64,000 bases of DNA, taken from NCBI GenBank assembly GCA_015143295.1, contig CM026554.1, forward strand, positions 31,261,531-31,325,530. The letters are read 5' to 3'. The DNA is from Tetracentron sinense (lineage: Eukaryota; Streptophyta; Magnoliopsida; Trochodendrales; Trochodendraceae). The stretch's first letter is position 1. Each line of letters starts with the position of its first letter. Position numbers and translations under genes: made by a program. Below the pieces are notes generated by a model. The model saw only the letters and a list, made by a program, of their open reading frames with translations, made no database searches and was not told where the DNA came from. Shown in pieces: positions 18,171 through 59,052 of the stretch.

Positions 18171-21100
18171 CCTATCGCCTTGTGGTGTAGTTGAGTTAAC
18201 AAAAAAAAACTTACCTTAGTCCCACAACGGCAGTGTAGCCGAGCTTGCCTCCCTCATAAGTGTCATTACGCCTCAAACGGTTGGTACCCGTTTTGAGGAG
18301 TGTTTGGGTGATGCTTATGTTGGGTTGTGTCGCGACCCAAAATACCCCCTAAGAGTTTTGGATACTTTAGCTCACGAACTCATTACGAACCATCCTGTCA
18401 AACATATAAGATATGCTATGGTGGAAGCGTAACTGAAAAGTTCTATACATATCATAATTCCAAGTTTATACATAAACAAAAGTAAAGAGTGATCAACATC
18501 ACTCAAAAAAATACATGTACAAGTCTCTCCCTCTCATCACTCATGATGGGGCCACCTAACAAAGGCCCTCTACTCCTCCTGAGCCCTCTGCTCTTGAAGA
18601 CTACACCAAGTCTCTTTCTCCTCAACGTACTCTTCTTTAACCTAAGGCTCCTGAGGACACTCGTCACAGATGTCGAAAGAACCTGTCGAGGTTATAGTTC
18701 AATTGATTATGAAATACTCCGCAGATACAAACTATTAGATAATAATATCATAAACATGAACACAATATATATATCGCAGTTTAAATCATTTCACATGCAT
18801 TACTTTAATCAGAGCGCGAAAAACGTAATTTAAAAACAATCATGTGCATATACCTCGGAAAAACATCTTCTTTTGTTTTACCATCTTTACTTTACGTTTC
18901 TCTATATATTTGCATTACGGGTATTATAAAATACCTTAGTTTCTATTACTTTCCATCACAGGTATTTAAAATACCTTAGATCCACCTAAGGAATCGGACA
19001 ACTAGTACCCATGTACCCACATAAATTAGGGGGCCTACTATTGTCCTCACCTTCGGCTACCTTCGGAGTAGACGTCCAGTATCCAACTCCCTCCCGGGCG
19101 GCCTGCTATTGTCGGAGTCCGACGACCAGTATCCAATTCTCTTCCAGGCGGCCTGCTATCATGCCTCCCCGATCGGTATAACTTAGTTGATTAGTACCCA
19201 TGAACCCATAGTAGATGGGCGAGCCTTCTATCAACCTAAGATAGATGACTAGCATCATCCTGTACCATTACTTTCCCTTATCTCTTTACTTTCCATTTAC
19301 CTCTTTACTTCCTCTATTACTCCCTTTACATCTCTTCTTTATCTTCTTTGGATACCCATAATTTAGAAAATCTCGATCATGCAAACATATGTGTCTGTGT
19401 AGCAATTGTGAATACATGGTAGACAATGAGAAATATACCTTAAGAACACTTACCATATAACCAAAAATCATATATTTCATTCATAGCCATAGCCCATATA
19501 CACAAACATCCAATGTCATCGAAATTTAAGGTTTTCTCATTTGGTTTTCCCCAAAACTTAAGTCCTTTAACATGTTCTTCACAATTAAGTCATAACCTAT
19601 ACTTTTCAATATTTGGTTTTAAGCATAGAAACATCACAAGTTAACTAGTAGGATTTCCTATTAATTCATAGCACCAATCAAAGGTTTTGATCTTGGTTTC
19701 ACAATATTGTTTATGACATTAAAAGCTAGTAGAGTGTATCTATCTTTGTCAATCAAAATTCCTTTGGTTTCGCACTTTGGAAACACCAAGGAAGCAAGAT
19801 CCGAACTTCAAAAGCTCAAACAAGGCTTCACCTTCAACCTAGGTTCAAAACCCTAGATTCTCTTTCTTCTCTCTCTCTAAAACTCTTCTTAGGGTATGTA
19901 AACCCTTACCCACGAGTGTGGGGCCTTATATAGGCAAAAGGGTTGGTAAAAGACCCTTAAACCCTTCCAAAATATCTCCCCAAGGTCGGTTTAGCATAAA
20001 ATGGAAGGAGGGTCGACTGGAGGTGTCCATCAGTTGACTGGTTGATTTAGGGGGAACTGGAAAAAACTCCCATACAAAAAGTACGAGCACCGGTCGACCG
20101 CTGGTGAGGACTGGTCGACCGGTAGTGGACGGGTCGACTGGTGTTGTGACCAGTCGACCGGTCATTCCCTGTTTTTTTCGTCTCTCTGGTGTTTCGGCCA
20201 TAACTTTTGACTGACTTATCGAATTTAAGACGATTCAACTTGAGTTGGACTCTTCATTCAAAGGGGAACATATTTGTGTCTAATGGGCTAATCCTAATTA
20301 TGCTTTATTTATGGTATAAACTAGCATTAAAGTTGACTGGTCCAAAGTTGCTTCAGGGATTTCAGCAAACTAGTTTTTGGAAAACCTACTTTTGTCTTAA
20401 CTTTGACTTGTAATATGAAAAATTGTTCAACATAAACATTGAAAAGGGTTGCAATATCTTTCTAATGACTTAAGAATCACTCGATTCCGATGAACGGTGA
20501 TGAAAATAGAGTTCCCACAAGTTGATGGAATGTCAAGACATCCCTCTTTGACACCTAGAACATTTAGAGTGCTTTCACACTCTCTTACCTTTGGTCCAAC
20601 ACCCTAATCACACCTCATGACTCATTCCCCCATAGGTTTGTAACCCACATAGGTGATCATTAAACCCACACCAACATGCATGAAAGGCTTCGGCCTCTTT
20701 ATGCCTCGTGCAGTAGCACTATTCACCCCACTATTTACTTACGACCTGTTAAGCACTTAGGGTATTTTATACCCTTGATTTTACCCACTTAGAGTATCTT
20801 TATATTATTTTTTTGAGACGCAATACATGCACCTAAAACCCTCACTTGACTCACCATAATACCAATAACACAATGGAAGGCTTTAGGCCTTTACACACAC
20901 CATATAAGGACATTATTCACTAACACTGTTCATAGCATAGTGAACTCGGATTCTGGGATTCTACAAGTCGCAAGTGTGGTTGTGTGTGTGGTGTGTGTGT
21001 GAGTGCATGGGGTGTGTGTGCTTCCTTTGTCTTGCCTTCAGCTATCGCCTTGTGGTGTAGTTGAGTTAATCAAAAAAACTTTCTTTTGGGTGTTTAGTCT

Positions 21101-21545
21101 CACATTGGCTATGTAGCCGAGGTTACCTCCTTCATAAGTGTTATCACGCTTCAAACGGTTGGTACCAATTTTGAGGAGTGTTTAGGTGATGCTTATGTTG
21201 GGTTGCAAGTGTGGTTGTGTGTGTGGTGTGTCTGAGAGTGCATGGGGTATGTGTGTTTCCTTTGTCTTGCCTTCGCTATCGCCTTGTGGTGTAGTTGAGT
21301 TAACCAAAAAAACTTACCTTCGAGTGTTTAGTCCCACATCGGCTATGTAGCTGAGCTTACCTCCATCATAAGTGCCATCACACCTCAAACGGTTAGTACC
21401 AGTTTTGATGAGTGTTTAGGTGATGCTTATGATGGGTTGCAAGTATGGTTGTGTGTGTGTGAGTGCATGGGGTGTGTGTGTTTCCTTTGTCTTGCTTTCA
21501 GGGTATCGCTTTGTCGTGTAGTTGAGTTGACCAAAAAAAAAAAAA
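18171..21545 (+). mobile_element. SINE-like tandem multimer with poly(A) tail and target duplication
   Basis: Repeat units start at TATCGCCTTGTGGTGTAG at 18173, 21043, 21277 and (as TATCGCTTTGTCGTGTAG) 21504, giving periods of 234 and 227 bp. The first unit is split by the solo LTR at 18328-20965. The array ends in a run of 13 or more A's. The flanks agcatataac (18161-18170) and gcatataac (21546-21554) look like a target duplication. The start word TGGTGTAGTTGAGTTAAC resembles a tRNA D-arm/A box. A B box was not found. Each end of the array carries the same short head followed by A's, so the unit boundaries are ambiguous. Confidence 0.6.
18328..20965. mobile_element. solo LTR, 2.6 kb, gypsy-like
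   Basis: Starts TGTCGCGACCCAAAAT and ends GGATTCTACA, obeying the TG...CA rule. TGTCGCG/TGTAATG-type starts are known for large LTRs of plant gypsy elements. It interrupts the tandem array exactly between ...GGGTTG and CAAGTGTGG, which are adjacent in the intact units. The flanks ggttg and agtcg agree at 3 of 5 positions. No internal retroelement genes are present, hence solo. A second family member is at 27137-29486. Confidence 0.7.
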
Positions 21546-23932: not shown

Positions 23933-24105
23933 TTATAATTGTTTTTAATTTTGATTAACAATTTAAACTTTTAGAATTAATTTTTTTTTCTAAAAGACCA
24001 AGGTTAAAGGGTTGAACTCTAAGGGTTATCGAATTTTAACATCGGTTAAGGGGTATTAAAAGGGACATTTGTTGACATGTAATTGGACTCCTTTCGGTTA
24101 CACCT

Positions 24106-24892
24106 TGGGGTGTGTTCGGTTGAGGGGTAAATGGGTAGGAGAAAGTAAAGTGAAGTACAGTAAAATAAAAGAATTATATAAATTCTCTTGTGTGCTTGGT
24201 TTGAGAGAAAAGTTTAGGGGAAAGTATAAATTTTTCCAAAATTACCCTTTGCTCTCTTTAGGAATAGGGTTCAACAAAATGGTAGGTTTGGAATTGGAAG
24301 TTTTTACTTTACTTTCTTTCACAATTCCAACTTTTTGGTGAAATAAGGTTTAGGTGAAAGTGAGAGAAAGTTGTACACTATTGAGAAAGTTCAAGTTTTA
24401 CTTTACCTCAAAATCCCTTAGGATGTGTTCGGTTGAGGGGTAAATGGGTGGGAGAAAGTAAAGTGAAGTGAAGTAAAGTGAAAGAATTGTATAAATTCTC
24501 TTGTGTGTTTGGTTTGAGAGAAAAGTTTAGAAGAAAATATAATTTTTTTCAAAATTACCCTTTGCTCTCTTTAGGAATAGGGTTTTCCAAAAGAGTAGAT
24601 TTGGAATTGGAAGCTTTTATTTTACTTTCTTTCACAATTCCAGCTTTTTGGTGGAATAAGGTTTGGGTGAAAATAAGAGAAAGTTGTACACTATTGAAAA
24701 AGTTCAAGTTTTACTTTACCTCAAAATCCCTCAAACCGAATAGGGTGAAAGTGGGAGTTTATTCCACTTTCACCCACTTTCCTTCGCATTCCCCTCAACC
24801 GAACACACCCTTAAACCGAATAGGGTGAAAGTGGGAGTTTCTCTCACTTTCACCCATTTTCTTCACAATCCCCTCAACCGAACACACCCTTG
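24106..24892. mobile_element. composite MITE, GGGTGTGTTCGGTTGAGGGG termini
   Basis: Two left halves start at TGTGTTCGGTTGAGGGG (24111 and 24424, period 313). Two right halves end in CCCCTCAACCGAACACACCC (near 24811 and 24891). The order left-left-right-right suggests that one copy inserted in another, or an internal duplication. TTG flanks both outer ends. Two frames of 90 and 116 codons here are products of the duplicated MITE, not genes. Confidence 0.75.
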
Positions 24893-31376: not shown

Positions 31377-33856
31377 CTAGAAGAACACCCCAAACCACCT
31401 CCCTAACCCTTCCTCCCCCTTTCTAGGGCCAACTCTCCAATAATTCCACATTGTCATAGGAAACACCCAAGGCACCTCCAACCGAGATAAGAAATAGTTC
31501 CACACCTCCCTTGCTACTGGACAATGTAATAAGAGATGGTCCACCGTCTCCTCCTCCTGGAAGCACATATAGCACCTATTTGGCAAACTCCAACCCCGCT
31601 TCTTCAACAGATCTTGAGTGAGAATTCTATCCAACACTGCAGCCCATAACAAAAAAGAGACCTTAGCAGGGACTCCTGCACACCAAACAACCCTATGAGG
31701 AAATCCCCCTATCCGGCATACTCATTGATCGATAGAGGATCCTAACCGAAAATCTCCCATGCTCCTCTTTGCTCCACAACCGACAGTCACGAACCTCTGG
31801 ATAAATGGCTATCACTGAGATAAGCTCCAAAAGCCTAACTAAATCTCTCATCTCCCAATCATGAAGGTCTCTCCTCAACCTAGGACACCAGACCACCCCC
31901 AAAGCACTACTCTCATATGAATCCACCACTAGAGCGTCCTTGTCTATTGTTAACCTGAAGATGTTGCCAAAATCTTCCACAAGCCTCGACAAATCCGACC
32001 AAACATCCTTCCAGAACCGAATTTCCGACCCTCTCCCAACTCGGTAGCGAAAGAAAGGTACAACCAAACCTGCCGTAGCCATAATGCCTTTTCACAGACC
32101 CAAGCCATGCGATCCCCTAACGTCCTTAGGAACCCAACACGAGTTCTCCCTATACTTTCGACCCTCTCCCAACTCGGTAGCGAAAGAAAGGTACAACCAA
32201 CCTGCCGTAGCCATAATGCCTTTCCACAGACCCAAGCCATGCGATCCCCTAACGTCCTTAGGAACCCAACACGAGTTCTCCCCATACTTGGCAACTATTA
32301 CTGCACGCCAAAGACTACTCATTTCCTCTCCAAATCTCCACACCTAATTTCCTGACAAAGTTTTGTTCATACGAATAATCGACTTCAAGCTCAACCCTCC
32401 CTCCTCCTTAGGACGACACATTTGGGACCAAGCCACCAAGTGATACTTAGCTTTGCTCCCTATCATTCTAGAGAAACTCCCGCTGCCGCCTTTCAATTAT
32501 GTCTGCAATAGAACGAGGAATAGTAAGAGTAGACAACAAATAAGCAGGTAAACTCTGAAGCGTGCTTCGTATCAAAGTCTCAATTTCCCCCATTTGGATA
32601 GATAAGACAACCTCCACCCAGATAACCTTTTCTCAACCCGATCTAAAACTGGATTCCACACTAATTTCAACTTGTAGCTAGCTCCAAGAGGCATCCCAAG
32701 GTAAATTGAAAGAAGAGAACCTACTCGACAACCTAGACAGATCGCCAGATGATCCATTATAGAAACCTCCCCCACATTAAGAATTTCAGACTTAGCCAAA
32801 TTTATGTGAAGACCCGACACTACCTTAAAGCAACGAAGAATGCACCTGACATTGAGAAGATCCCTTCTCGAAGCCCGACTGAAGATAAAAGTATCATCCG
32901 CAAATTGGAGATGAGAAATCCTCTAGGCCCTGGTTACCAATGTGGAATCCTTCAAATAGTGACCCCTCAGCTCTAACCACCATCCTACTTAACGCTTCCG
33001 TAACAATCACAAAAAGGAAAGGAGAAAGTGGATCTCCCTACCTCAGCCCCCTAAAGTTAGCGAAGAACCCCACCGAGCTCCCATTCACCAAAATGGAGAA
33101 AGAAACTGAAGCTATGCACGACCTTATCCATCTCCGCCACTTCACTCCAAACCCCATCCTTCTAAGGACATAGAGCAGGAACTCCCAATTGACATGATCA
33201 TACGCCTTCTCCATATCAATTTTACACAAGATGCCCGGATACCTGCCCCTCACCCTTGAATCGATACACTCATTTGCAACCAGAATCCCATCTCCTATTT
33301 GGCGCCCCCCAACAAATGCACTCTGCCCTAACGAGATAATAGAAGACATCACAATTTTAAGACTAGATGCTAACACCTTTGATAGGATCTTGTACGGGCT
33401 ACTCACAAGACTTATAGGCCTAAAGTCTTTGAGATCCACAGCCCCTTCCTACTTGGGAATTAATGAGATAAATGAACAACTCATCACTCTATCGAAACTC
33501 CCAGAAACAAATAATTCCTGCATCACTGCCATAAAATCCCTCCCCACAATGTCCCAACATCCCCTAAAAAATTCAATAGTAAAGCCATCTGGGTCGAGAG
33601 CCCTATCTCCTTCCATGCCTCTAATCACTCCTAAAACCTCTTCCTCCTCAAACTGAGCATCCAAGAGAGTCCGCTGGTCTTGAGTCAACCCATCAAAGTG
33701 AAGCCCATCTAGCTTTGGCCGCCACCGCTTCCTTTCCCTATACAACTCCTTGTAAAAAGAAATTATACTTTCCTCCATTTCGCTCTTATCTTCTACCCAC
33801 CGCCCCTCTACCCACAATTTGGAAATGAAGTTCCTTTTGCGGTTATAGTTCGCCAT
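31377..33856 (-). pseudogene. LINE-B ORF2 (reverse transcriptase plus zf-RVT), broken
   Basis: The frame is split into at least five open pieces: 33449-33856, 33038-33439, 32572-32820, 31693-32082 and 31377-31652, in different phases. Recognisable parts are the pre-RT segment with DPDGFTIEFFRGCWD, the RT palm with [13 protein letters not shown] and FADD, a post-RT segment (GWRLSYLSKWGKLRL) and the C-terminal zf-RVT with Cys-Cys-His-Cys spacing. Its product would copy LINE RNA into DNA at the target site. The many frame breaks show that it is not functional. Confidence 0.85.
32026..32291. repeat. 133-bp direct tandem duplication inside LINE-B
   Basis: Two adjacent copies with a 133-bp period, each running from CGACCCTCTCCCAACTCGG to GAGTTCTCCC and TATACTT/CATACTT. 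They differ at only a few bases, so the duplication is young relative to the other damage in the element. Confidence 0.9.
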
Positions 33857-35545: not shown

Positions 35546-37610
35546 GGCTTTGTACCTCCTGAGCGACCTGTACATATTGGAACCTTCCGACGTCGTAACA
35601 GCCTTGTGTACGCAACTGAACTGCCTAGACCTCGGATTCGGAATCGTCGGTTCTTGTAATGGCATACTTTGCTTGCATGAACCGGTAAGCTATGATCCTG
35701 TTTACTAGTGTAATCCTGTTCTGGGAGAGTATATGACTCTTCCCAAAATAAAGAATGAACGTGCGCTGGATGTGGTGTCTGGTTTTGGCTTTGATCCATG
35801 GAAGAATGAATATAAGGTGGTTCGTATGTATTATCTGGAGGATGAAAGAAAGAGTACTAGATGGGGGCTTAATCAGGATATATTAGTGGGTGAGATATAC
35901 ACTATTGGCTCCGGAGAGTGGCGAACAATTGGAGAAATCCCTTGCAAGCTCTTAGTTAGATCACCTCTGCAGTTTCTCTAACATATGTTAATAATAAACA
36001 AGCCCGTCAAAATTAAAGACTTTAAGAGGGCGGGATCAATATTTTTATTCTCGGACAAGTAGAAATTCAACATGCATAAAATAAGAAATTAAACGTAATT
36101 GGGACATAAGAGGAGGAAGTCTTTAAAAAAAAACATAAATCATTAAACATCCAAGTGATATGTGACTGATTCCAAAACAAAAGGATCAAAGTGATGGGTA
36201 TTTTTTGCTCAAAACAGTAAGAATGGAGACTGAGCAGCCAGATAAGCTAGAAGATGGTGACCACGCTCTCTAAGTATACTATGGACAACCACAATTTAAA
36301 AAGGAAGAAAAAGCTATATTTTCATAGTGCCAAACCATTCCTCATCTTGGTTTCCATCATATTCCCTTAAATTCAATATAAACTAAAAACTAATTTCGTT
36401 GTCTAACCATTAACGAATTTTTTTTATACCATAAAATCAAGTGCTCATGTGTGATGCTTTATCATTGCATGGAAATGAAAAAAAAAAAAAGGAAATAGGT
36501 TTTAGTGGTTCAGGCATAATATTCCCTCAAGCAACAGTAAGAAAAACGATCGACACAATTTTTTTTTCAAGATCAATAAAGCACAAAATGGCATTATGTC
36601 AAAAATAATTGGAAAACAAGGAGTTAAGTGCCTATTTACCTCATCCCAGTTTCAATTTCCCTCAGTGAAACCGGACTCGCCGCATGAGTAATTGCTTCGT
36701 AGAACTTGGATGGAAAGCCAGGAATATCGGAGCCCGTGAATTTTGTCTTTGGCTTGTAAGACATGAGACCATCATCTCCCTTATAAGAAAAACCAATCAC
36801 CAAGATTTCGCCATTTGTCATAATATCTATTGGGCGAATAACAACCTTCTCAATGCAATCCTTCGACCATGGCCAGTCGATGACAAACTCCTTAGTACAA
36901 GACCCCCTATCCGCATACTTCTTCATCACCCACATCTACACCTGTTCGCCAAATATCAAAAATGCAGAGTTGCTCCCTCAAAACCCCTAGGTCCATTTTG
37001 TATCATGTTAGAGAGCTTCTCACATCCAGATCAAAGTCATAGGGTGATAGGTCAGTGTAGAAGTCCTCGGCCCTCATATCATAAGAAACAATAAACTCAT
37101 TTGCCTCCATAAAAGAAAAACCACCTTCTTTGTCGTTTAGAAAATGAAGAGCTCCAGCAAGAAACGACACAGGTGATCTAACTCGGAGCTTGTAAGGGAT
37201 TTCTCCAATTGTTCACCAACTCTTGAGCCAATAGTGTATATCTCACCCGCTAATATATCCTGATTAAGCCCCCATCTAGTACTCTTTCGTTCATCCTCCA
37301 GATAATACATACGAACCACCTTATATTCATTCTTCCATGGATCAAAGCCAAAACCAGACACCACATCCAGCGCACGTTCATTCTTTATTTTGGGAAGAGT
37401 CATATACTCTCCCAGAACAGGATTACCTAGGTAAACAGGATCATAGCTTATTGGTTCATGCAAGCAAAGTATGCCGTTACAGGAACCGACGATTCCGAAT
37501 TTGAGGTCCAGGCGGTTTAGTTGCGTACTCAAGGCTGTTACGACGTCAGGAGGTTCCAACATGTACAGGTCGCTCAGGAGGTACAAAGCAAAGTATGTCA
37601 TCTTTGCTTC
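35545..37610. other. F-box gene fragments in inverted-repeat arrangement inside copia-1
   Basis: The left arm 35545-35979 (plus) and the right arm 37163-37610 (minus) are near-identical and inverted, separated by about 1.2 kb. Both encode GIVGSCNGILCLHEP, YMTLPKIKNERALDVVSGFG and DPWKNEYKVVRMYYLED, an F-box-associated (FBA) domain signature. The insert sits where copia-1 should read directly from KWVFTVK to RYKARL. A transcript across it should fold into a long hairpin. Confidence 0.8.
36636..37605 (-). pseudogene. F-box-associated (FBA) domain gene fragment
   Basis: The minus strand reads from YFALYLLSDLYMLEPPDVV through the FBA repeats to VWVMKKYADRGSCTKEFVID, NGEILVIGFSYKGD and SYKPKTKFTGSDIPGF, ending VSLREIETGMR with a stop at about 36636. 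That is most of an FBA domain including its natural C-terminus. The N-terminal F-box motif is not seen. Frame changes near 37137 and 36935 and a stop near 37010 break it. F-box/FBA proteins are substrate adaptors of SCF ubiquitin ligases; this copy is a captured, non-functional piece. Confidence 0.75.
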
Positions 37611-49251: not shown

Positions 49252-50683
49252 GGCTCCGGTGCTAGATTGGGTCTCCTTGAGGCTTGTAGGCTAGAAGTCC
49301 TCTCTTCTCTCCAAAGGTGGTAAACTAACTCTTATCAAGAGTACTCTTAGGAGTCTCCCAACGTATTATCTTTCCACCTTAGTCATCCCCTAGTCTATTG
49401 TCATGTCCCTTGAGAGACTCCAGCGCAATTTTCTTTGGCACGGGTGATGTGACAAAAGAAAATACCATCTGGTTAATTGGAACCAAATTTGTAAAAACCC
49501 CAGGTGGCAGAGGGCCTAAACATTGCTCATTTTAGTGCGGTGAATAAAGCTCTATTAGGAAAATGGGTTTGGTTGTTCGGTGAGGAGCGTGAGAGTCTCT
49601 AGTGGAAGGTGATCGTGGCCAAATACGGTCTTGACTCACCTTGGGTTTCCAGGAGGGTCAGAGGTCCCCATGGGGTGGGTCTGTGGAAAGGTATCATAGG
49701 TGTCGCTAAGTCTCTTGATCCTTTTGTTAGGTTTCATCTGGGTAATGGGATGACATCCGATTTTGGCACGATATCTGGTATGGCCAGTCGAGGTTTAAAG
49801 ATGATTTTGGTTCTATTTTTTCATCAAGGGGCTTCTATTACCGAGTGTGGAGAGATTAGGGAGCGGTATTGTCTGGTTTCCTAGGTTTAGGAGGGACCTA
49901 AATGATTGGGAAGTTGGAGATATATAGAGGCTTTTGGCTTGATTGAGTTTCTACTCTAGGCCTCAGATCAGTGATTGTCGGGTTTGGTTTTGAAGCAATA
50001 ACGGATGATTTTTAATGAGATCTCTCGTGCAGTCTTTTGATTTAGCTCCTTTGCGCTCATTTCCTTATGCGGCTGTGTGGGCTAACTAGGTTCCTACGAA
50101 GGTATCCTTCTTCCTCTGGTCCGCGATACTAAATAAGTTTCTCACTACGGATTAGTTATAGAGGCGAGGGTGGAGCTTAGCTAACCGTTGTTATCTGTGC
50201 CTGAATGCGGAAGAAAGTGTGAATCATATACTCCTGCATTGTCCGGTCATCTCTGAACTCTGGGCTTTTTTCTTGTATCGGTTGGGTGTGGAGTAGGTCT
50301 TCCCGTTCTTCTTTCTGAGTTTCTTATCTAGTTGAGATTTGACAACTTTGGTGGGTTCTAAGGAAACTATCTGGACTTTTTTGCTTAGAGCGATTTCCTG
50401 GGCTATCTGGAAAGAGATGAATGGTCGTGTTTTTGACAATTTTTCCTCATATCATTGTATCCTGTCGCGGGCACAACAGTCGATTGTGGACTGGAGTTTA
50501 CCCTTACAGTTGTGTCAAGAAGTGAGGGATATCCTTCACCTTTGAGGAGAGAGTTGGGTGCTAATGTGTTACTTTATGTTCTCCCCTCCTCTCTTTGTTT
50601 TTATTTTTCTCTTTTTGTTCTTAGTTTACATCTCTGTAAACTGTTCTCTTTTTAATAATATTTGATTTACTGATAAAAAAAAA
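49252..50683 (+). pseudogene. LINE-C ORF2 end (post-RT, zf-RVT) and 3' tail
   Basis: Reads VIVAKYGLDSPWVSRRVRGP and GVGLWKGIIGVAKSLDPFVR, then RCYLCLNAEESVNHILLHC-type zf-RVT near 50190-50240, with many frame breaks. It ends in the 3' UTR motif GTTTACATCTCTGTAAACTG and poly(A). Confidence 0.82.
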
Positions 50684-50689
50684 GTAGCA

Positions 50690-52850
50690 GATAAAATCTA
50701 AAACAAGATGCAATACAACAGTTTACAGAGATGTAAACTAAACGTAGCTATCAAGAAAGCGAAAGAAACAAAAAAGGGAAATAATAGGACGAATACAGAG
50801 GCTGAGCTGATTCCTCACACTAGTAGCATATTCCTTACTTCTTGCCCCAACCGGTGAGAGTGGAACTCCATTCCACAATCCTGCGCTGAACACGGGCTAG
50901 AACCCGTGAAGATGGAGGGAGGAATTGGCAAAGATGCGACTATTCCTCTTTCCAAATAGTCCATGAGATAGCACTAGGCAAGATGGTCCAGATTTCTTCC
51001 TCGACACCCACCAAAGTCATCAATTTCCAACCCGATATAAAGCTCAGAAATGAGGAGGGGAAGACCCACTCCACTCCACTCCACTCCACTCCTAACCGAG
51101 ACAGGAACGAAGTCAAAAACCCCCAGACAATCGGGCAGTGTAAGAACAAGTGATTCATAGAATCTTCCTCATTCAAGCACAAATAACAACAATTTGCCAT
51201 GCTCCACAGTCCACCCTCTAGTCTTTAAGTGATCAGTAGTAAGAATTTTGTTTAGAGCTACAGACCAGAGGAAAAGGATACCTTGGTTGGAACACGGATC
51301 ATGGTTAGGCCAAACAACCTTAGAAGGAAATGGGTGCCCGGATTCAAGAGCAAAGGACTATAAAAGAGATCTCACTAAAAATTGACCGAAGTTGCTTCTG
51401 GACCAAATCCTAGAATCACTAATCTGGATACTTGGGGAGGAGGAGCTTAAGCGAGCTAGCAGATGATACATATCATCGACTTCCCAATCATTTAGGTTTC
51501 TCCGCAACCTAATATACCAGACTAAGTCACGACCTACCCTCTTTTTTGAGTGCCAAGAGGAAAATAGATCCAAAATCCTCTGTAAGCCGCGACTGACCAC
51601 TCCAAACGTTTGTCTAGAATCGGATATCGGCCCCAGCGAGTTGTTGTTCGGTGGGTTGTGATCTTGGCTCTTCCGTGTCAAGAGATAAGAGCTGGCTGAA
51701 CCGGCCCATCAGGCCAGAGGATCTCCTAGGAGTACCCATGGAAGGCATATGAGATGCAGATAGGGAACTTGCAACAGGTTTCCCATGCCAAGGATCAGCA
51801 GAGAGCTCTGAATCATCAGCCACATCACTGGCCACACGAGCAGAGAGAAGGCCAAGCTTGTGCAACCTTATGATGCAATCCAGGATATTTCTCCAACCAG
51901 TGCGGATATAATCACCATATGCATTCGCTATGGTGAAGACTGTTATGGTTGCCATCCTTGCTTTTATGTCGTCACCAAAGGCTAGAACAAGTTATTCGGC
52001 AGAAGACGGATTCAAGAGGGTAGTGACTTACAAAGAGACACAACCAGATCATCCAATACATCTTCAAGATGATGGCATGTGGAAATCTTTGCGACGGCTA
52101 AGAATCCATCGACACATGTTTGGAAAACATCTTCATGCTCTGAATGATCAAATACCACCGAGATCGCAGCAATTGTGGGACCTGACATGATAGCAAACAT
52201 ACCATGGTCAAGGAAGGCTCTAGAATCACACATGATGAATGGAGCGGTCATCTTGGATTTGCGCATTAGATCAACTTGAACTGAATGAATGGATTTAACA
52301 AAGGAGCTACGCCATAATACCTTTCCAGAGGTCATATTGTGAGGACATTTCATGTTCTTTGACATCTAGGGAGAGGTTATCCCATATTTTGCGACGATCA
52401 CCTTCCTCCACAGACTCTCCCGATCTTCTCCAAACCTCCAAACCTATTTCCCCTGAAGAGCCTTATTCAGCACGGTTAGTGGGGCATAATTTAGACCTCC
52501 TGCTCTTAACGGTATGCAAATTTGATTGCACACAACCAGGTGCTATTTCCTATTCCCCCTCTCTCATTCCAAAGAAAAGTACGCTGAATACGGTCTAGGG
52601 ACAAAGCTAAAGACCTTGGGAGTTTAAAGGATGACAAATAGTAAGTTGGTAAACTCCTAATGGTACTCTTGCGGAGGGTTAACTTGCCACCTTTTGAAAG
52701 GAGGCATGACTTCCAACCTACTAATTTGGATGATAATCATTCGATTACTGGAGCACATACGGCTTTGGATTTGAAAGGAGCTCCTAGGGGGAGTTTGAGG
52801 TAAGTGGAGGGAAGTGACCCAATCTTGCAGTCGAGGCAACTAACCAAGAG
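50690..52850 (-). mobile_element. LINE-D, L1-type remnant, minus strand, tail to tail with LINE-C
   Basis: Its 3' end (left) carries the same GTTTACATCTCTGTAAACTG motif as LINE-C. Minus-strand order from the right: post-RT part (SSFQIQSRMCS equivalent to LINE-C GSFQIQSRLGSG), VIVAKYG, GVAPLLNPFIQFKL, the GNOM insert, ADIRF*TNVWSGQSRLTEDF, and zf-RVT (CYLCLNEEDSMNHLFLHC). It is 5'-truncated near 52850. A (CCACT)n run at 51069-51092 lies in the zf-RVT part. Confidence 0.8.
51634..52272 (-). pseudogene. captured fragment of a GNOM-type ARF-GEF gene
   Basis: The minus strand reads DLMRKSKMTAPFIMCDSRAF, MFAIMSGPTIAAISVVFDHS, DGFLAVAKISTCHHLEDVLD, ARMATITVFTIANAYGDYIR, GTPRRSSGLMGRFSQLLSLD and TEEPRSQPTEQQLA. 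This is the stretch just C-terminal to the Sec7 domain in plant GNOM/GBF1-class guanine-nucleotide exchange factors for ARF GTPases. The fragment is about 213 codons. It has a one-base deletion after VSLCK (near 52015) and a TAA in place of a Glu codon downstream. Both borders fuse directly to LINE-D sequence. It cannot make a working protein. Confidence 0.85.
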
Positions 52851-53482
52851 GTCCATGCTGCATCTTTTCATTCGGTGGCTATCTTTGATCATTTGTGCTC
52901 AAGGTGTTCAAAAGTCCAAGATAGTTTACTTTTATCAAGTCTGGGTTTCTTGTGATTCATTTATAATGTTTTGGTCTAAGCCTCTTCTCGGCTAGCCTTT
53001 TTTATGTAATTATGGTTCGCCACTTTTCATCGTTTTAAGTTTTAATACAGTTAACTTATAAAAATAATTTCCCGATTCATCTAAACTTGAAAGAGTTTTA
53101 GTATTCTAAATGTAAATAAGACATAAATTTCATAAATCATACCTACTAAATGAAGCCTTATTAGGAATTAAAGAACATCTTGAAATATGGAAATAGGACT
53201 CAAACTTGTAGCTCCAACATGAACATGCACCTGCCCTTGTATTTTGGCCATAACTCACTCAGCCATGTCCTAATTGCATAAAGTTGGTCTTGTGAATTGA
53301 TTAAGCTTTCTATAATTACCTATATTAATGTGCCCTGACACAAAAGAATATGACCTAAAATAATATGACAATATTGGACTGCTTTAGTAACTATTTATTT
53401 CCCCTACGTCTTCCATAAGCTTAAGCTCATCTAGTATGAAACATGTGACCTAGTGCTCCTTAAATGCATCATTAGCTGGTGC
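52851..53482. other. gene-free stretch
   Basis: No plausible ORF, no recognised repeat. Confidence 0.5.
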
Positions 53483-53914
53483 TGATGACTTTTCTAAGCC
53501 TTGCCTAATTTGGTGGGGAGTAGGAAGATGGTACTACTAACTACAAGAGGAATTTTGGTAGAGAGCAAAGAAATTAGACTAGAAGGCTGCTGCCTTTTGA
53601 AAGAAAAGAACACTCTATTGAGTATGTACTGTATTTGCAGAATGCCTTACACTAGGAATTCTTACTTCAATCCATACCCAAAATGTCCCACACAGCCCTT
53701 TTATAGATTTACAAAACATGTAAAATGTCAATAATATCCCTATTCTAGTTCGGTTCTTCAAGACACAAGTGCAATACCCTTTCATATTCCAAGAGCTTTG
53801 TACGTTTCCAAGAATTCCAGTTTCTAGAAAATTTCTGCATGATCTCCATCTCATGGTTAAGGCTTTCCAATACGTCTAGATCCTTCAAGAGTCTTGAGGT
53901 TTGCATTTCCAACA
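53483..53914 (-). repeat. copia-2 3' LTR
   Basis: 432 bp; matches the right LTR throughout with scattered substitutions and small indels. Confidence 0.9.
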
Positions 53915-58629: not shown

Positions 58630-59052
58630 TGATGACTTTTCTAAGCCTTGCCCAATTTGATGGAGAGTAGGAAGATGGGTGCTACTAACTACAAGATGAA
58701 CTTTGGTAGAGAACAAAAGAAACTAGACTAGAAGACTGCTGTCTTTTAAAAGAAAAGAACTCTCTGTATATTATTTGCAGCATACCTTACACTAGGAATT
58801 CTTACTTCACTCCATACCAAAATGTAAAACACACACCCCTTTATAGATTTACAAAGGAAGTAAAATGTCAATAATATCCCTATCCTAGTAAGTTCTTCAA
58901 GACACGAGGACAATGCCCTTTCATCTTCTAAGAGTTTTGTAAGCTTCCAAGACTTCAGTTTCTAGAAAATTTCTGCTTGATCTCCATCTTATGGATGAAG
59001 CCTTCCAATACATCTAGATGCTTCAAGAATCTTCAGGTTTGCATTTCCAACA
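58630..59052 (-). repeat. copia-2 5' LTR
   Basis: 423 bp; on the plus strand it starts TGATGACTTTTCTAAGCC right after the primer site and ends TTTCCAACA. Confidence 0.9.

Follow-up and report, generated by a model that had tools for sequence, protein, structure and literature searches.

A GNOM-type gene fragment in a decayed LINE of Tetracentron sinense as probable filler DNA from double-strand-break repair

How does a piece of an ARF-GEF gene come to lie inside a LINE, and did the LINE itself put it there? The window analysed here is a stretch of 64,000 nucleotides (G000:C4:31261531-31325530) from an assembly of 1.16 Gb in 1479 contigs, all of which was searched. Within a decayed LINE copy it holds a 641-bp stretch of coding sequence for a GNOM-type ARF-GEF. 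Read on the minus strand, the LINE block GVAPLLNPFIQFK passes directly into GNOM-type sequence, which passes directly into the LINE block GADIRF (Table 1). An earlier note on this DNA had recognised a GNOM fragment captured inside a LINE and sharing its orientation, and had suggested either template switching during reverse transcription or a later repair event. The fragment and its orientation are confirmed, with borders at 51634-52274 in place of the 51634-52272 originally given. We conclude that the insert is very probably filler DNA, copied or captured during the repair of a double-strand break in a LINE that was already long dead.

Table 1. Positions of the captured fragment, its borders and the two parts of the host LINE (window coordinates).
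Feature	Position	Strand	Remark
5'-ward LINE part (ORF2 region)	52275..52855	minus	closest copies 82-83% (best 40 of 700 candidates)
LINE-to-GNOM junction (5' side, sense direction)	52274..52275	minus	0 bp microhomology
Captured GNOM (ARF-GEF) coding fragment	51634..52274	minus	98.75% to L002 (C4 parent)
Single-base deletion in fragment vs parent and paralog	between 52026 and 52027	minus	
Premature stop in fragment	51992-51994	minus	parent codon GAA -> TAA in insert
GNOM-to-LINE junction	51633..51634	minus	2 bp (TG) possible microhomology
3'-ward LINE part (end of ORF2 and 3' UTR)	50684..51633	minus	contiguous with upper part in sister loci

A genome-wide search with the fragment found four places: the fragment itself, C4:50537230 (99%), C10:35301090 (92%) and C1:18984252 (75%). 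The donor is the GNOM gene at C4:50537230, on the same contig as the insert and 19.2 Mb distant. The two are 98.75% identical across 642 columns, and such a likeness is therefore, judged by sequence, not a chance match. The earlier note had proposed a search for the parental gene, and had considered that the fragment might itself be the functional GNOM locus. This is not the case, as an apparently intact GNOM gene lies elsewhere, with an uninterrupted frame of 1265 codons (the 3' exon) and a 270-codon frame upstream of it. Its predicted protein contains HUS (PF12783), Sec7 (PF01369; residues 360-543 of the 1265-codon frame) and GBF1-like TPR (PF23325) domains (L005:3259-7056, Pfam), a combination in one protein which by domain prediction makes the donor a GNOM/GBF-type ARF-GEF. 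The name GNOM is a putative assignment from the look of the sequence.

The insert corresponds to approximately codons 563-776 of the 1265-codon frame, just downstream of Sec7. It lies wholly within one long donor exon, and the parental intron count, proposed as a check, gives none in the donor stretch. Since the source is a single exon, the absence of introns cannot separate a DNA from an RNA template, and the count is uninformative on this point. Searches with the fragment alone were of no use: in Pfam, one of three pieces gave three matches, all below the cut-off (E 0.11-0.14), and a structure search of the PDB with the first 83 residues gave zero matches. Its identity rests on the parent gene, and no function is indicated for it; that a transcript of the LINE might give rise to small RNAs directed at GNOM is a conjecture. 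The C10 gene is a paralog of the donor (88.7% across 5.3 kb), and C1 is a more distant relative (75-77%). When the 5.2-kb C4 gene region was used as the query, two weak stretches on C8 (71-73%) were found additionally, and no further recent fragment was seen among the candidates (6/6 scored).

Eight changes, seven substitutions and a single-base deletion, separate the insert from the C4 parent. At each of these eight places the C10 paralog has the parental state, and the changes therefore arose on the insert's own branch. The one deletion and one stop already pointed out in the fragment are both real in the alignment to parent and paralog. The divergence, which the earlier note had asked to have computed, is 7 substitutions in 641 bp. 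One is synonymous, five are missense and one is nonsense, where neutral change would be expected to give 1.64, 5.16 and 0.20, respectively. These changes are neutral-looking, and the sequence is under no visible selection. The parent and the C10 paralog differ at 43/642 positions in the same region, approximately 31 synonymous and 12 nonsynonymous.

The host element was examined by a Pfam scan of four LINE pieces, with stops read as X. zf-RVT (PF13966) was above the cut-off in the piece 50940-51299 (31.2 vs 27.5 bits, E 3.6e-7), and the other three pieces had no Pfam match. The zf-RVT match supports a host element related to reverse transcriptases, and a reverse-transcriptase-like reading was recognised by eye at 52530-52859. 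Homology of the 5'-ward part to sister copies stops near 52855. For the 3'-ward part, the closest full-length copy outside the window is 78% identical and the best partial match 83% over 392 bp (both from the best 40 of 1600 candidates).

Several features of the LINE copy may be recorded here. A second copy (49286-50683, plus strand) lies tail to tail with the one at 50684-52855 (minus strand), and its A-run abuts the end of the minus copy. The two belong to one wider family and are about 65-68% alike. Both carry a hairpin near the 3' end, at 50720-50739 (minus) and 50623-50642 (plus), with an 8-bp stem (AGTTTACA/TGTAAACT) and a 4-base loop. It is found with at most two mismatches in 22/29 sister loci, with exact stems in nine, despite the sister copies elsewhere being just 70-83% alike among the matches listed. 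Conserved 3' hairpins are known from plant L1-type LINEs. A run of 5.4 copies of the pentamer CCACT lies within the LINE at 51066-51092, and at 51092 the window copy has a private 15-bp insertion that L009 and L011 lack, so that the pentamer array may have lengthened since the LINE copy landed.

The state of the site before the insertion can be read from sister copies. Six of the 29 sister loci reach both borders, and in all six the LINE blocks that flank the insert are adjacent, as had been stated; the gap between the flank ends is 10 bp in L009, L011, L012, L013 and L022, and 9 bp in L010, these being paralogous LINE copies and not an orthologous locus. The six best matches to the upper flank outside the window (L009-L014) all begin at the junction base (best 40 of 700 candidates). 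L009 reads TTCAAG-CTTGGAAATG-GGGCCGAT; in the window, TTCAAG is followed by the insert, which ends in CGCTG, and then by GGGCCGAT. Two of the ten native bases (TG) are possibly common to the insert's end, and therefore 8-10 bp of native LINE sequence was replaced. When 20 bases on each side were compared, no target-site duplication was found at the borders, and the longest words in common were of four bases, away from the junctions. Neither border has poly(A). The borders had been described as direct fusions without target duplication; the lack of a duplication holds, but the join is accompanied by the loss of 8-10 bp of LINE. Microhomology was considered as a marker of mechanism and dropped, the 0 and 2 bp seen here being at chance level: in a simple simulation, at least two shared bases are expected at about 17% of junctions. 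A processed pseudogene, made from mRNA mobilised by a LINE, would be expected to have a poly(A) tail and a target-site duplication, and neither was found.

The decisive comparison is between the decay of the insert and that of the LINE around it. Private changes in the LINE copy were counted only at gap-free positions with the same base in L009 and L011 (1243 of 1536 columns), and amount to 131/1243 (10.5%), against 7/641 (1.1%) in the insert (Fisher p=5e-17). When agreement of L010 was also demanded the LINE figure was 64/867 (7.4%, p=9e-10), noting that L010 has a long branch (0.377) and a lower flank that aligns only in part; with other reference copies it was 7.9-11.2%. C>T and G>A changes are common in methylated transposons, and when they were left out the counts were 66/1243 for the LINE and 4/641 for the insert (p=2e-8). 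Within 100 bp of the junctions the LINE has 24/157 private changes. Compared with L009 and L011, and with the junction and the 3' end set aside, 11 indels are private to the LINE in 1536 bp; the insert has one in 641 bp.

The private changes in the LINE could in principle have accumulated in a working source element. They are, however, about equally frequent at the three codon positions (40/335, 29/326 and 33/319, or 11.9, 8.9 and 10.3%), in a frame map read by eye that leaves 263/1243 columns unassigned. This points to changes that arose mostly after the copy had died. A tree was made from the window copy with its 29 sister loci, leaving out the further loci from the lower-flank search (78% full-length and 83% partial at best). 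In it, the terminal branches are 0.097 for the window copy, 0.085 for L009 and 0.094 for L011. Short branches connect these three, and the tree is locally nearly star-like, as might be expected after a burst of copying. As the insert shows about one tenth of the change seen in the LINE, the LINE had mostly decayed by the time of the capture. If rates were equal, the capture would fall within approximately the last tenth of the life of the LINE copy.

A young patch in a dead element, with an intact distant donor, 8-10 bp replaced and neither duplication nor poly(A), fits repair with filler DNA. The insert copies an identifiable distant donor that is still in the genome; the target loss is small. 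We therefore favour the following sequence of events. A double-strand break would have struck the ORF2 remnant of a long-dead LINE copy. In the course of repair, 8-10 bp of LINE would have been lost and the gap filled with 641 bp copied from the GNOM 3' exon on the same contig, through either synthesis-dependent strand annealing or end joining that took in a captured or templated piece, and the patch would since have drifted neutrally as a pseudogene fragment. The template was presumably DNA rather than cDNA, which is mildly favoured by a donor on the same contig, since this contig holds 5.0% of the assembly. That the insert has the same orientation as the LINE is, under repair, a coin toss. 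Of the two explanations first suggested, the later repair event is thus the one supported by the insert's much lower level of change.

The patching of gaps in plant genomes, with filler DNA at repaired breaks, was reportedly described by Wicker and colleagues in Genome Research in 2010. The present case illustrates this familiar plant process clearly but is otherwise ordinary, and leaves the view of plant LINEs and of GNOM unchanged. Its value is as a single well-resolved case, in which the donor, the borders, the lost bases and the relative ages can all be read. It also illustrates that a comparison of decay across the border separates gene capture by a LINE from a patch in a dead one.

In the parts of PMC4423477 used here, foreign filler DNA in plants is attributed to synthesis-dependent strand annealing, and the segments in rice are 1-123 bp long and lie at transposon excision sites. 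Plant filler of this kind resembles our case in the distant genomic copy, the small loss, the short or absent microhomology, the lack of duplication and the intact donor. It differs in that our insert is 641 bp long, and in that there is no sign here that transposon excision made the break. For Arabidopsis, the portions consulted of PMC10923293 report that classical end joining gives mostly 1-5 bp deletions with 0-1 bp microhomology, that theta-mediated joining gives larger deletions with microhomology, and that other donor molecules (T-DNA) are inserted at Cas9 breaks. Polymerase-theta insertions and T-DNA capture, so far as described there, resemble our case in that a break takes up sequence from a second molecule and loses some bases, but the deletions there are larger and the junctions have microhomology, compared with 8-10 bp lost and 0 and 2 bp shared here. 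These last figures do not pin down a repair pathway.

The alternative that fares best is a variant of repair in which the patch was derived from GNOM RNA, either captured as cDNA or templated directly by the RNA. We consider it unlikely. The fragment is wholly coding and the absence of introns permits an RNA origin, but over the fragment the parent exon is an unbroken part of the 1265-codon frame, with no intron to lose, so that there is no positive sign of RNA. Both borders also lack poly(A), and the shared contig again leans mildly towards DNA, as it would be met by chance in 5.0% of cases. A patch made from mRNA would, if true, show a plant drawing on information from RNA at a chromosomal break under natural conditions.

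Gene conversion offers a way for an insert as old as the LINE to look young, namely if the GNOM gene on C4 had later overwritten it. In principle, ectopic conversion could do this. However, the eight changes are scattered along the insert (positions 24 to 601 of 642 in the parent fragment) with no older segments at its ends, and conversion would have had to reach both borders. We regard it as quite improbable.

Template switching, in which the LINE reverse transcriptase would have moved to GNOM mRNA and back while the copy was being made, is in our view highly improbable. The sense orientation does match the chimeras of PMC13174262, where, in the parts drawn on, transcribed-strand gene sequence and the LINE joined to it run in one sense, and the insert is purely exonic. 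Those L1 chimeras, as presented there, form during retrotransposition as fusions of RNA with LINE-1 and are not internal inserts, whereas ours lies inside its LINE and is far younger than it. The reverse transcriptase would have had to switch twice, presumably returning no more than 10 bp from the point of exit. Above all, switching predicts equal decay of insert and LINE, and the observed decay is unequal by about tenfold, also without C>T and G>A. The template switching suggested in the earlier note is therefore refuted for the window LINE copy, barring a refresh by gene conversion. For plant transposons more generally, template switching is discussed for LTR retrotransposons in the consulted portion of a review of gene capture (PMC13317346). 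The least credible explanation, and a very unlikely one, is that the assembly joined a GNOM locus into the LINE: two joins, close together in one LINE copy, would be required, and the insert's own stop, deletion and substitutions are absent from both the C4 parent and the C10 paralog.

If the chimera itself had been mobilised, several LINEs with the same fusion might be expected, as the earlier note had pointed out. No second copy was found. Nothing within 1.5 kb of the other three matches to the insert is similar to the window's LINEs, and no LINE flank match elsewhere in the genome falls on one of the insert matches (best 40 of 700 candidates for the upper flank; 45 matches from the best 40 of 1600 for the lower). 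This absence rests mainly on the two insert searches, in which all candidates were scored (4/4 and 6/6). Nor did any LINE among the scored matches carry such sequence as a native part, a further possibility that had been raised.

The surroundings contain other repeats. Inverted repeats of about 430 bp lie at 35547-35977 and 37160-37589, and are 93.5% identical. Tandem or near-tandem duplications occur at 24103-24731, 32023-32289 and 20967-21539, with offsets of 313, 133 and 235 bp, respectively, and identities of 88-97%. Direct repeats at 53483-53914 and 58630-59052 are 85.7% alike and about 5 kb apart, and the decayed sequence between them looks like a copia-type pol on the minus strand; the two repeats are probably LTRs left by an old LTR retrotransposon.
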